From NCBI GenBank assembly GCA_903900335.1, contig CAIUMP010000058.1:1-33081 (forward strand): a DNA stretch of 33,081 bases, written 5' to 3'. The translations under genes and the position numbers were made by a program. Positions 13,396 to 33,081 of this stretch are shown piece after piece. This DNA is from an uncultured Ignavibacteriota bacterium. Lineage in GTDB: Bacteria; Bacteroidota; Ignavibacteria; Palsa-1295. A model generated the notes under the pieces. The model saw only the letters and a list, made by a program, of their open reading frames with translations, had not been told where the DNA came from and did not search any database. Each line of letters starts with the position of its first letter. Within the stretch, counting starts at the first letter, position 1.

Positions 13396-14253
13396 TTACC
13401 CGCCCCGCTTCCGTATCTTCTTATAGTTTACAGGCCGCTTCTCATTAAATGCGCTGATGCCTTCGCTTACTTCAGGCGAGAGATTGTGAATTGAGAGCCA
13501 GTCGCGCGCGTGACCGATGGTCGAGTGCCACGAGAAGTCCTTCCAGAAGTTAAGATTTTGCTTCGTGTAGCGGAGGCACTCGGGCAGCTTGTTGTATAGC
13601 TTCTCGCACAGCCTTGCAACCGCGCGATCGAGATCTTCCTTCGGCACCACCTCGTTTACAAGTCCCCACTCCAGCGCCTTCTCGGCGGAAATATCCTCGC
13701 ACAAAAAGAGAATCTCCCGCGCGCGGCGATCCCCAACCATGATCGGCAGCCACTGTGTCGCGCCCGCCGCTGCAACACTTCCCCGCGCCGCACCGACCTG
13801 TTTGATAATAACATGATCCGCCGCGATCGCAAGGTCGCACGAGATATTGACCTCGTTGCCGCCACCGACAACCATGCCGTTCAACCGCGCGACCGTTGGC
13901 TTACCGATATTACGCAAACGCTCGTGCATCTCGATGAAGACGCGCATCCACTTGTAATAATCCTGCGGATTGTTGAGGAAGAACTCCTCCTGCTCGGCGA
14001 GATCAGCGCCCGTCGAGAACGCGCGGTCGCCAGCACCGGTGATGACGAGCACGGCAATATCATCGTCCCACGACGCGTCCTCTATCGCCACAGACATCTC
14101 GCGCAACGTCGTCAGATTCATGCAGTTCAGCACTTCCGGACGATTGATCGTCAGCGTCGCGACGTAATCGTTCTTCTCATAGAGAACATGCGTGAAGTCG
14201 AACGTGCGTTTCTCTTCGTAGGGGTTGAGTTCGGGGGAGGTGCGTTTTGCCAC
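13396..14253 (-). CDS. Enoyl-CoA hydratase/isomerase (crotonase) family protein
   Basis: The 285-aa product begins at a GTG (14253) with no good ribosome-binding site. Crotonase landmarks are clear: ATLTINRPEVLNCMN, then GAGDRAFSTGADLAE, NGMVVGGGNEVNISCDLAIAADH, RGSVAAAGATQWLP and EKALEWGLVNEVVP. By alignment to rat crotonase, Glu134 (GGGNE) corresponds to catalytic Glu144, but the Glu164 position is Gly154. A normal water-adding hydratase is therefore doubtful, and the pattern is nearer to MenB or BamA-type enzymes. The MenB GSFDGG motif is absent, so I do not call MenB. The substrate is an unknown acyl-CoA. The gene lies between a REP-like dimer and the OprB-family gene (27-bp gap) and may share a transcript with the latter. 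Confidence 0.88.
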   Translation of the reverse strand: MAKRTSPELNPYEEKRTFDFTHVLYEKNDYVATLTINRPEVLNCMNLTTLREMSVAIEDASWDDDIAVLVITGAGDRAFSTGADLAEQEEFFLNNPQDYYKWMRVFIEMHERLRNIGKPTVARLNGMVVGGGNEVNISCDLAIAADHVIIKQVGAARGSVAAAGATQWLPIMVGDRRAREILFLCEDISAEKALEWGLVNEVVPKEDLDRAVARLCEKLYNKLPECLRYTKQNLNFWKDFSWHSTIGHARDWLSIHNLSPEVSEGISAFNEKRPVNYKKIRKRGG

Positions 14254-14293: not shown

Positions 14294-14405
14294 ACGTCAT
14301 TGCGAAGAAACCCCGGAGGGGTGACGAAGCAATCCGTTGATGGGGTACGACTCGTTCCTTAACAACGGATTGCTTCGTCGGCCTGCGGCCTCCTCGCAAT
14401 GACGT
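14294..14405. repeat. REP-like inverted dimer, family 1
   Basis: Two ~45-bp arms (14294-14339 and 14363-14405) face each other around a 23-bp spacer. In common orientation both read CAACGGATTGCTTCGTC, then a small hairpin, then TTCGCAATGACGT or CTCGCAATGACGT. The hairpins differ in sequence (ACCCC/GGGGT and GGCC/GGCC) but stay self-complementary. The layout is that of bacterial REP/BIME elements. It occupies the 173-bp gap between two minus-strand genes. The related monomer is at 19661-19704. Confidence 0.85.
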
Positions 14406-14426: not shown

Positions 14427-14753
14427 TTAGAGCGCGACTTCTTCCACGCGTCCCGTGATCATCGAAACAAGCGGACCGGCGAAAGCCATCAAGTCCTTCG
14501 CAGCCGCGCGGCTGTTCGGCGATTTCATCGACGCCTTCAGCGATTCCTCATCATCGAAGTACATCGTGCATACAAGGTGCGGTTGCGCCGCGACGGTTGC
14601 GTTGCCCGGCGTCAGCATCTTATCGACCCAGGTTACTTCCATCTTCCGAAGGCCTTCCATCTGCTTCGATAGCGGTGTGTGGACTTCCTTGTAATGCCTA
14701 TCGAATTCTTCTCTGTTCTCCGGCGCGCCGTAAATTGCTGTGAGTGTGTGCAT
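14427..14753 (-). CDS. EthD-family (dimeric alpha/beta-barrel) protein
   Basis: I start at the ATG at 14753, giving 108 aa (MHTLTAIYGAPENREEFDRH...). Extending upstream adds an untypical hydrophobic leader. The sequence YGAPENREEFDRHYKEVHTPL, VTWVDKMLTPGNA..., HLVCTMYFDDEESLKASM and MITGRVEEVAL matches the EthD family of small ferredoxin-like-fold proteins. EthD was named from ethyl tert-butyl ether degradation loci. Relatives are scattered and usually of unknown reaction, some acting as small cyclases or decarboxylases or in oxygenase clusters. The protein is cytoplasmic, with no signal peptide. Its neighbours give no clear pathway, although the downstream gene is a crotonase-family enzyme. 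Confidence 0.82.
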   Translation of the reverse strand: MHTLTAIYGAPENREEFDRHYKEVHTPLSKQMEGLRKMEVTWVDKMLTPGNATVAAQPHLVCTMYFDDEESLKASMKSPNSRAAAKDLMAFAGPLVSMITGRVEEVAL

Positions 14754-14902
14754 TCTGAAAATTATGTGTGATTGAGGATGACCGTTCATCCGTTCGTGCA
14801 AAATTACGGCGAGAATTGCCGCCACCATTATTTATGGCATTTCGAAACCAACCATTCGATCGATCCTTAGCTGTCCCTGATCGAGGAAAAATTCTCAACC
14901 GA

Positions 14903-16607: not shown

Positions 16608-16737
16608 TGTCATCCTGAGCGCAGTTCGTGCGACCCGAGAGCGCGAACGAAGTCGAAGGATCTCTCGTCAATGAGCAGAGATTCTTCGACTCCGCAAATC
16701 TACGCTCCGCTACGATTTGCTCCGCTCAGAGTGACAA
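16608..16737. repeat. REP-like inverted dimer, family 2
   Basis: The arms start TGTCATCCTGAGCGCAG on one side and TGTCACTCTGAGCGGAG on the other (opposite strand). They meet at CGAAGTCGAAGGATCTCT / CGGAGTCGAAGAATCTCT. Each arm carries its own internal hairpin: TTCGTGC with GCGCGAA in the left arm, and CAAATC with GATTTG in the right arm. The architecture resembles the family 1 elements but the sequence differs. It fills most of the 209-bp gap between the two thioredoxin-fold genes and may act as a transcript-end structure. Confidence 0.8.
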
Positions 16738-17534: not shown

Positions 17535-19646
17535 ATGTCCATTCTACGACCCCGAATCACAAGCTTCCTGTTAGCCGCGCTTCTTTCCTTGAGTGCATCC
17601 ACGGTTTGTCGTAGCCAGTGGGTACAAGCCAACGGACTAGGTGGCAGTTGCATTAACGTGCTCGCTGCAAGCGGCTCGGACATCTATGCCGGGACGGATG
17701 GAGGCGTGACAACTTCCGTTGATGGAGGGACAAGCTGGATCTCAGTCAACAACGGTTTGGCACAACAGAGAATTTATAGCATCGCAGCTCTCGGATCAAG
17801 TGTTTTCGCCGGAGCACAAGGCGCTGGATTTTGCTCCACAGACAAAGGAAAGCACTGGACTCCATCAAAACTTGGCTCAAAGAACGCCGGGTATTTTTGG
17901 GCTACCGGGACAAACCTCTACGCGTACGCCGGAGGGGGACTATTCCGTTCATCAGACACAGGAGCAACGTGGATCGAAGCCGACAGTAATTTTGGACTTC
18001 CCACCATTAGAGCTTTTCATGCATTGGGTGCATGGCTCTTTGCTGGAACAGTGCGCGGCATCTATCGCTCAACTGACGCGGGCGCAAGCTGGGAAGCTGT
18101 CGATAGTGGTTTGGAAAACAATTATGTAAACGCACTCCTGATTGATGGCACGAATATATTTGCTGGGACAGTTGGTGGGGTCTTTCTTTCTACTGATAGC
18201 GGCGCAACCTGGACTGCTAAAAATAACGGCTTCAAGTTCTACTACACAGATGCCTTAGCAATGATTGGCGCTACCCTGTTTGCAGGAAAGGAAGAGGGTG
18301 GCGTCTACCGTTCAACAGATAGGGGCGAAAACTGGATTGCAACCGATAGCGGATTGACAGGAAGCAGCGTCCATTCCCTTGTGGCATATGGCGATACTCT
18401 GTTTGCTGGAACCGAGTGGGGTGAGATATTCCGGTCGACTGATTCCGGCGCGAGTTGGCGCGAAGTCAATGTTGGAATGATGGGCGCGCACATTACAGCA
18501 ATGACAGCAAGCGACTCTATTCTTTATGTAGGGACAAATCGAGGCGCAGTTTCTCACTCCACAGACAAAGGCGTAACGTGGAATGCCGTCAATACGGGAT
18601 TGTCAGGCACCTATGTTTCTTGTCTCGCTACGGTAGGTTCGAGCATCTTTGTCGGGACTCAGGAGGGCAATCTATTTCTTTCGTCGGACAGTGGATCAAG
18701 TTGGAGCGCAGTTAACTCGGGTCTGAATAAATATCAATTTGGTGGGTTTGCTGCATGCGGCACAACTCGTTTGATCGCAGCATTGACGCTGACAGCAGGC
18801 AAACAGTATCGAATGTATCTCACGACAAATAACGGCACCGATTGGATTCCTGATACTGCCGGTCTAGGCGGTGAGGTGCTTACTTCGTTTGCGATGAAAG
18901 GTTCGGAGGTGTGGGGAGCCAATCTCGGTGGAATCTACCAATCAACCGATAGTGGAGGGAACTGGTCTTTTGCAGGCTTGAAGGATTATTATATGCAGTG
19001 CCTGGGCTCGAACCAGACGTGTATTTTCGCAGGTTCCCCGTATGGCGTCTTCCGAAGCACCGACGATGGGAGCACATGGGAAGCCGCAAGTAATGGATTG
19101 ACAAACAAGAATATCGCCTGCATTGCGTCCTGCAAAGAGAAGCTGTTCGCGGGCACAAACGGCGGTGGTATCTTCTGTTCGACGGACAACGGCCACAATT
19201 GGCAATCGGTCAATGATGGAATTCCCTCCGCATTCATACCTGCTCTCACCGTTATTGGTTCGGATCTCTACGCCGCAACTGCCGATAGCGGTAGATGGAC
19301 AGGCGGCTCCGGTGTCTGGCGCCGCCCCCTCTCCGAAATGATTGGCACGAACGCTGTTCCGAAGCAGGCAGCACCAGCAACACCGAGCGGGATAAAATCC
19401 TACCCCAATCCCTTCTGCCAATCCACCACCATCCATTTCATGAGCGAAGAGCGCGGCTTCGGGCAAGTTACGGTCGTCAATCTTCTCGGCAATGAAGTTG
19501 CGCGGCTGTTCGAGGGCGAGTTGGAGGCGGGCGAGCATTCGTTCGAGTGGGATGCTTCCGGCGCGGCGGCGGGGACGTACTTCTGCATAATCCGGCAGGG
19601 CGGATCAGGGGCTGCCCAACATGCCGCTCTTGTGCTTACACGGTAG
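17535..19646 (+). CDS. Secreted 14-repeat Asp-box beta-propeller protein with T9SS sorting domain
   Basis: The 703-aa product has a signal peptide (RITSFLLAALLSLSASTVCRSQ). It then has about 14 repeats of ~40 residues with the pattern LFAGT.GG.[FIY].STD.G..W..V.SGL, in which the S.D.G..W Asp-box is nearly invariant. Fourteen repeats would fit two seven-bladed propellers, as in the BNR/Ycf48/Vps10 style. Repeat 10 is irregular. From about residue 620 comes KSYPNPFCQSTTIHF...VTVVNLLGNEVARL...AAAGTYFCIIRQ, a T9SS type A sorting domain. The protein is expected outside the cell or on its surface. Such domains bind glycans or proteins, or sit beside catalytic domains, but no catalytic domain is visible. 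It shares architecture with the gene at the left edge of the window. Confidence 0.92.
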   Translation: MSILRPRITSFLLAALLSLSASTVCRSQWVQANGLGGSCINVLAASGSDIYAGTDGGVTTSVDGGTSWISVNNGLAQQRIYSIAALGSSVFAGAQGAGFCSTDKGKHWTPSKLGSKNAGYFWATGTNLYAYAGGGLFRSSDTGATWIEADSNFGLPTIRAFHALGAWLFAGTVRGIYRSTDAGASWEAVDSGLENNYVNALLIDGTNIFAGTVGGVFLSTDSGATWTAKNNGFKFYYTDALAMIGATLFAGKEEGGVYRSTDRGENWIATDSGLTGSSVHSLVAYGDTLFAGTEWGEIFRSTDSGASWREVNVGMMGAHITAMTASDSILYVGTNRGAVSHSTDKGVTWNAVNTGLSGTYVSCLATVGSSIFVGTQEGNLFLSSDSGSSWSAVNSGLNKYQFGGFAACGTTRLIAALTLTAGKQYRMYLTTNNGTDWIPDTAGLGGEVLTSFAMKGSEVWGANLGGIYQSTDSGGNWSFAGLKDYYMQCLGSNQTCIFAGSPYGVFRSTDDGSTWEAASNGLTNKNIACIASCKEKLFAGTNGGGIFCSTDNGHNWQSVNDGIPSAFIPALTVIGSDLYAATADSGRWTGGSGVWRRPLSEMIGTNAVPKQAAPATPSGIKSYPNPFCQSTTIHFMSEERGFGQVTVVNLLGNEVARLFEGELEAGEHSFEWDASGAAAGTYFCIIRQGGSGAAQHAALVLTR

Positions 19647-19660
19647 TGAGTGGTTCTCGT

Positions 19661-19704
19661 CAACGGATTGCTTCGTCACCCTTTCAGGGTTCCTCGCAAT
19701 GACG
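19661..19704. repeat. REP-like monomer, family 1
   Basis: The element reads CAACGGATTGCTTCGTC, then ACCCT-TTC-AGGGT, then TCCTCGCAATGACG. Its first 17 bases are identical to both arms of the dimer at 14294-14405, while the hairpin stem differs. It lies 14 bp after the stop of the T9SS propeller gene and 64 bp before the sigma-54 activator gene. Confidence 0.85.
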
Positions 19705-32906: not shown

Positions 32907-32922
32907 CTTCACAACTCTTCTA

Positions 32923-33081
32923 TTTCTTCCCATCACTTTCCCTTTTCTTCCCATCACTTTCCCTTTTCTTCCCATCACTTTCCCTTTTCTTCCCATCACT
33001 TTCCCTTTTCTTCCCATCACTTTCCCTTTTCTTCCCATCACTTTCCCTTTTCTTCCCATCACTTTCCCTTTTCTTCCCATC
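32923..33081. repeat. 21-bp tandem repeat (minisatellite), at least 7.5 copies
   Basis: The unit CCCATCACTTTCCCTTTTC plus TT (21 bp) repeats without visible variation to the window end, so the total copy number is unknown. The unit is a multiple of three, so frames read through it stay open (minus strand: repeated MGRKGKV), which explains a long antisense frame here. One strand is almost pure pyrimidine. Confidence 0.95.

Follow-up and report, generated by a model that had tools for sequence, protein, structure and literature searches.

The window analysed here, a stretch of 33,081 nucleotides, is contig C58 of an assembly of 4.0 Mb in 62 contigs (genome G000). The motif CGTCATTGCGA...GAAGCAATCC gave three exact matches in the window, at 14295-14335 (+), 14367-14404 (-) and 19665-19704 (-), against none in 100 shuffles of the window. 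The first two units form an inverted pair, the third is solitary, and all three carry the 17-bp flank GACGAAGCAATCCGTTG together with CGTCATTGCG, as the first-pass annotation had reported. As a whole the element is about 110 nt long (14295..14404, no strand assigned) and consists of two CGTC-tagged units arranged head to head as a dimer; it is supported by the exact pattern, the covariance model R1 (121.5 bits), the fold and the comparison of orthologous sites. It lies between two co-directional minus-strand genes, one of the enoyl-CoA hydratase/isomerase family (13396..14253; Pfam ECH_1, E = 1.4e-51) and one for an EthD-domain protein (14427..14828; Pfam EthD, E = 1.6e-08), and lies about 22 bp beyond the stop codon of the latter. 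The solitary unit lies at most 20 bp past the stop codon of a T9SS-sorted protein (17535-19646).

Unit A (14295..14335, +), defined by its sequence and by covariation at the level of the unit, is composed on the plus strand of the CGTC tag (14295-14298), the foot ATTGC/GCAAT (14299-14303 with 14329-14333), an inner stem ACCCC/GGGGT (14310-14314 and 14318-14322) and the triloop GGA (14315-14317). A spacer of 33 nt without assigned strand (14335..14367) separates the two feet and has the complementary ends CGTTG...CAACG. Unit B (14367..14404, -), recognised by sequence and exact pattern, has the same foot and tag as unit A, with an inner stem GGCC/GGCC at 14380-14383 and 14387-14390 and the triloop GCA on the minus strand. 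The single unit (19665..19704, -) was assigned to the same family on the same evidence, and its inner stem ACCCT/AGGGT occupies 19678-19682 with 19686-19690 in plus-strand coordinates. A tandem 21-nt repeat, ACTTTCCCTTTTCTTCCCATC, was also observed at 32914-33081, reaching the end of the window and of the contig.

Exact units number 56 in this genome, equally divided between the strands (28 each), while the reversed control pattern gave 0, which supports the description of a REP-like family of high copy number. Most of these units are arranged as inverted pairs and mostly lie between genes, often shortly 3' of a stop codon. The spacer, of variable sequence, measures 33 nt in 14 of the 15 exact head-head dimers and 34 nt in the remaining one. 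CGTC, TGTC and AGTC variants of the tag were seen among dimers. An apparent array of dimers on contig C36 was rejected as such, its regular 3.2-kb spacing resembling the spacing of successive genes. Units of the CGTC-1 type, GTCATTCCCGCGnnnGCGGGAATCCA, occur in the same genome (L045:7100-7140 and other loci), so that at least three CGTC families exist there side by side. A repeat of about 65 nt (L039:1711-1775), a by-product of a DNA search, has many copies in this genome and in the congener G298.

The distribution among genomes was analysed with the dimer covariance model and the unit pattern. The model returned 63 matches in the window's genome, counted on both strands of each palindromic place, with at least 28 distinct places among the matches listed. 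The corresponding numbers were 113 in G298, 37 in G296, 38 in G297 and 58 in G208, and 0 in the congeners G164 and G299. Units were present in 131 of the 296 genomes of the phylum, with 461 units in G002, a genome of one contig and 100% completeness. The lineage-type pattern was also seen in records of Bradyrhizobium, Chryseobacterium, Zixibacteria, KSB1, Chloroflexota and Latescibacterota, which are mostly metagenome-assembled and may reflect binning errors. Phage and plasmid collections gave no match to the dimer. In G002 (L047-L076) the spacer contains a TCATCCTGAG-family dimer in 8 of 16 ATTGC-family dimers and is mostly 16 nt in the simple dimers, and at several loci of this genome the outer ends are partly repeated in mirror symmetry (L059).

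Six congeners and G208 lack the window dimer at the orthologous site; in them the flanking genes are adjacent, with only about 30-80 bases between the aligned flanks. The dimer of contig C36 is missing in four congeners and another dimer in two; the 19661 site has no orthologous left flank. These absences make insertion in the window's lineage likely by parsimony, the congeners being only about 75-80% identical, a distance at which junctions and target duplication are unreadable. The insertion into the window's species was probably recent, and the pair, not the single unit, appears to be what spreads.

The inner stems of the three window units differ from each other, and each is self-complementary, as had been noted from the window alone. 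Among 38 distinct inner segments of the genome there are at least seven different self-complementary stems (ACCCC, GTCCC, ACCGC, ACCCT, GGCC, GTGC and GGGC), and the mean Watson-Crick stem is 4.2 compared with 2.5 for shuffled segments. When the 5' and 3' halves were swapped between units the mean stem was 2.9, and none of 1000 swaps reached 4.2. In 21 distinct long-arm units 97.1% of cells are paired and 22 two-sided changes were counted against 6.4 in shuffled data (0/500); the pairing collapses to about 50% when the partners are slid. The conservation of the foot carries no covariation information, since the foot was set by the search pattern. The complementarity is strong and not universal: the stem is disrupted in a few copies (GTCCC/GTGAC and the GCGTAACG-AGTGGAGC type), and in G298 an inner stem is not evident in one of the arm types. 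The earlier proposal that structure is kept over sequence therefore stands as far as conserved structure is concerned. The selection that it had read from this pattern does not follow from compensatory stems alone, because correction by template switching could also make such stems.

Within one unit, opposed GA letters stand beside the ATTGC/GCAAT foot and alternate with Watson-Crick pairs, and most tips have the form G-N-A. A GNA triloop was found in 22 of 38 units of the window's genome, compared with 2.8 in shuffled units; for other genera the count was 29 of 54 distinct units, compared with 3.9 (maximum 10). Immediately within the GA/GA step, 35 of 38 units have a complementary pair, of the types G-C, A-T, T-A, C-G and G-T; shuffled units give 26.4 (0/5000). 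Symmetry around this step is expected where a unit folds on itself. Each unit is thus predicted to fold alone by a rule common across genera, which consists of the foot, the GA/GA steps and mostly a GNA triloop, and the GA/GA steps may form sheared G.A pairs. According to Yoshizawa 1997, as cited in PMC6479982, GNA triloops form DNA mini-hairpins of very high stability that contain a sheared G.A pair. The units share with these d(GCGAAGC)-type hairpins, as the citing paper presents them, the G-N-A tip, the Watson-Crick closing pair and an adjacent possible sheared G.A; the mini-hairpins are however studied oligonucleotides, while the present motif forms the tip of a repeat in a genome and is read from sequence.

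Whether modelled as DNA or as RNA, the window dimer folds with a z of about -10 to -11; the predicted structure has an outer stem and a long central arm with one hairpin on either side of that arm. RNAalifold on 16 dimers predicted this four-way junction as well, and each of the two side hairpins shows two-sided changes. Variation in the outer and central stems of these dimers is minimal, so the four-way junction is a possible fold that covariation does not prove. Within the 33-nt spacer, no covariation was detected beyond the consensus (136 paired cells, 139 with exchanged halves).

A second CGTC-tagged dimer of another family (TGTCATCCTGAGCG...) is located at 16608..16736 (+), with a fold z of -6.2 and relatives having covarying side hairpins. 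It has the layout of family 1, with an outer stem, a side hairpin, a central arm and a different side hairpin forming a four-way junction, and it was the next best match in the window of a model derived solely from family 1 (E = 0.05). Forty-nine exact units of this second family were counted in the congener G298, where its side stems are hypervariable yet nearly always complementary. Among the 54 hairpins collected from the window's genus, 40 different stems occur; 446 of the stem cells are Watson-Crick pairs, 4 are G.T and 10 are other mismatches. The tip has the form GA-x-GNA-x-GA in 39 of these hairpins. In 28 units 97.9% of cells are paired, falling to 35-62% when slid, and 52 two-sided changes were counted against 15.5.

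The second family also bears on the explanation that template switching in quasi-palindromes rewrites one strand of a stem from the other, which would produce complementary stems without selection on structure. The 52 two-sided changes stand beside only 2 wobble and 6 broken cells, and such change on both sides with few intermediates would be expected from this process, as would the mirror-symmetric partial end repeats of G002. Against this process, the GNA and GA-x-GNA-x-GA tips are kept while the stems vary. The arms of the dimers also stay different, though correction across the larger palindrome would equalise them. None of the 15 exact dimers has the same stem in both arms, and the similarity of the arms within these dimers is lower than in all 500 random pairings; by stem class alone the excess of unlike arms is weaker, 0/15 against a mean of 2.5, with 21 of 500 shuffles equally low. 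Template switching is rated as an unlikely source of the complementary stems.

The position of the units might suggest another role, that of an RNA element at gene 3' ends which stabilises mRNA or blocks exonucleases and whose structure is kept for that purpose. Units lie mostly in intergenic regions at a median distance of 28 nt from the stop codon, and the dimer as RNA has a fold energy of -70 kcal/mol, both in agreement with such a role. RNA structures normally accept G.U, but the mismatches of family 1 comprise 5 G.T and 5 A.C, so that wobbles are not enriched there, nor are they in the second family, and this leans weakly to DNA over RNA. The known high stability of GNA triloops as DNA hairpins also counts in favour of DNA. 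No terminator-like tail was found at the window dimer, and no Rfam 15 family matched the element, either at the gathering score or with E values up to 0.5. The very uneven presence within one genus further argues against a shared host function, and a role in RNA is considered improbable.

Comparison with known repeats places the element, on the features given in the text of Di Nocera 2013 (PMC3733652), in the CGTC-tagged REP superfamily. The shared features are the CGTC/TGTC tag with a complementary AT at the start of the stem, the predominance of head-head dimers in which unlike arms are common, and the intergenic position near 3' ends without an associated transposase gene. All three window units show the arrangement CGTC-ATTGC...GCAAT-CC, the exact head-head dimers show the unlike arms, and no association with a transposase gene was found. 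The published elements of CGTC families 1-4 are described there with stems of 8-9 bp and loops of 4-5 nt, whereas the elements here combine a foot of 5 bp with GA/GA steps and carry an additional apical hairpin whose sequence varies, most inner regions being 17-21 nt with their own hairpin; for this reason the element was not filed under a numbered CGTC family. The running text of that paper describes neither the four-way-junction dimer nor the GNA/GA rule.

Whether CGTC repeats are mobilised by RAYTs or by other transposases was a question raised by Di Nocera, De Gregorio and Rocco (2013, PMC3733652), and the first-pass annotation had attributed the conserved structure to recognition by a RAYT. 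The elements do resemble GTAG REPs and REPINs with a RAYT in being short palindromic units in inverted pairs with a conserved spacer length, non-autonomous, present in many copies and with two distinguishable strands, the head-head dimers being REPIN-like. Six Y1_Tnp matches were found in the window's genome, and the five proteins scanned comprise three IS200-like and two RAYT-like ones. The search for a RAYT gene in the same genome was thus successful in part, as the two RAYT-like proteins have a best E of 7.6e-20 to NF047646 and fall under its 80-bit NCBIfam cut-off. Their genes (L045:5950-6960 and L044:3090-3830) are flanked by the GTAG-tagged palindromes ACCGGAGCTTTAGCTCCGGT and GGGGTTAACGGCGTTAACCC and not by CGTC units. 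With these palindromes of their own they look like ordinary REP-RAYT systems beside the CGTC repeats.

The repeats could still be moved by a RAYT/TnpA_REP that is encoded in the same genome or was formerly present, and at a loose threshold RAYT-like matches are indeed found in 35 of 38 genomes with at least 10 units, compared with 194 of 258 other genomes, a difference that could be explained through genome size. Against this, the tag is CGTC and not GTAG, and none of 56 Y1 loci from 12 genomes has CGTC units within 600 bp on both sides. The complete genome G002, with its hundreds of units, gave no match to NF047646 (RAYT) or PF01797 (Y1_Tnp) while control genomes gave the expected matches, and Y1_Tnp matches are likewise lacking in G133, G060 and G280, where 10-21 units were counted. 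Conversely, the congener G164 has 11 Y1 genes and one unit. Association with a RAYT gene was rejected on flanks, genome presence and copy number. These data leave RAYT recognition without support and argue against a need for RAYTs in the spreading of CGTC repeats; mobilisation by such an enzyme is considered very unlikely.

The explanation that we favour, by a modest degree, is that the feature is a non-autonomous repeat defined by its structure, a head-head CGTC REP dimer in which a single-stranded DNA hairpin of the GA strand is selected and the pair is copied by an activity other than Y1/RAYT. From the observed population of repeats, the covariation, the constancy of the dimer and the site differences among congeners, we infer that the form under selection would be the hairpin of one unit, single-stranded and on the GA-rich strand, for which DNA exposed during replication would be the likely substrate. 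The hairpin would be bound and copied by an activity other than a Y1/RAYT transposase, which would move the pair as one unit. Long perfect palindromes tend to be cleaved or deleted by cells, and the two unlike arms may keep the pair from being one. A wider proposal is put forward more tentatively, and with clearly less confidence, that CGTC repeats of several families form one class of mobile single-stranded DNA elements. Their recognition would depend on shape (a GNA triloop together with opposed GA/GA steps, on one strand), and an enzyme not related to Y1/HUH transposases would copy them as four-way-junction pairs with unlike arms.

The question of how CGTC repeats spread, posed in 2013, can now be tested on a complete genome in which 461 units are present and no Y1 transposase is detectable, and sister species having dozens of units or none offer material for such tests. 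The second family, with 40 almost fully complementary stems in 54 hairpins, provides unusually clean natural data for separating selection on structure from template-switch mutation. The structural rule states which strand and which features an enzyme would need to recognise.
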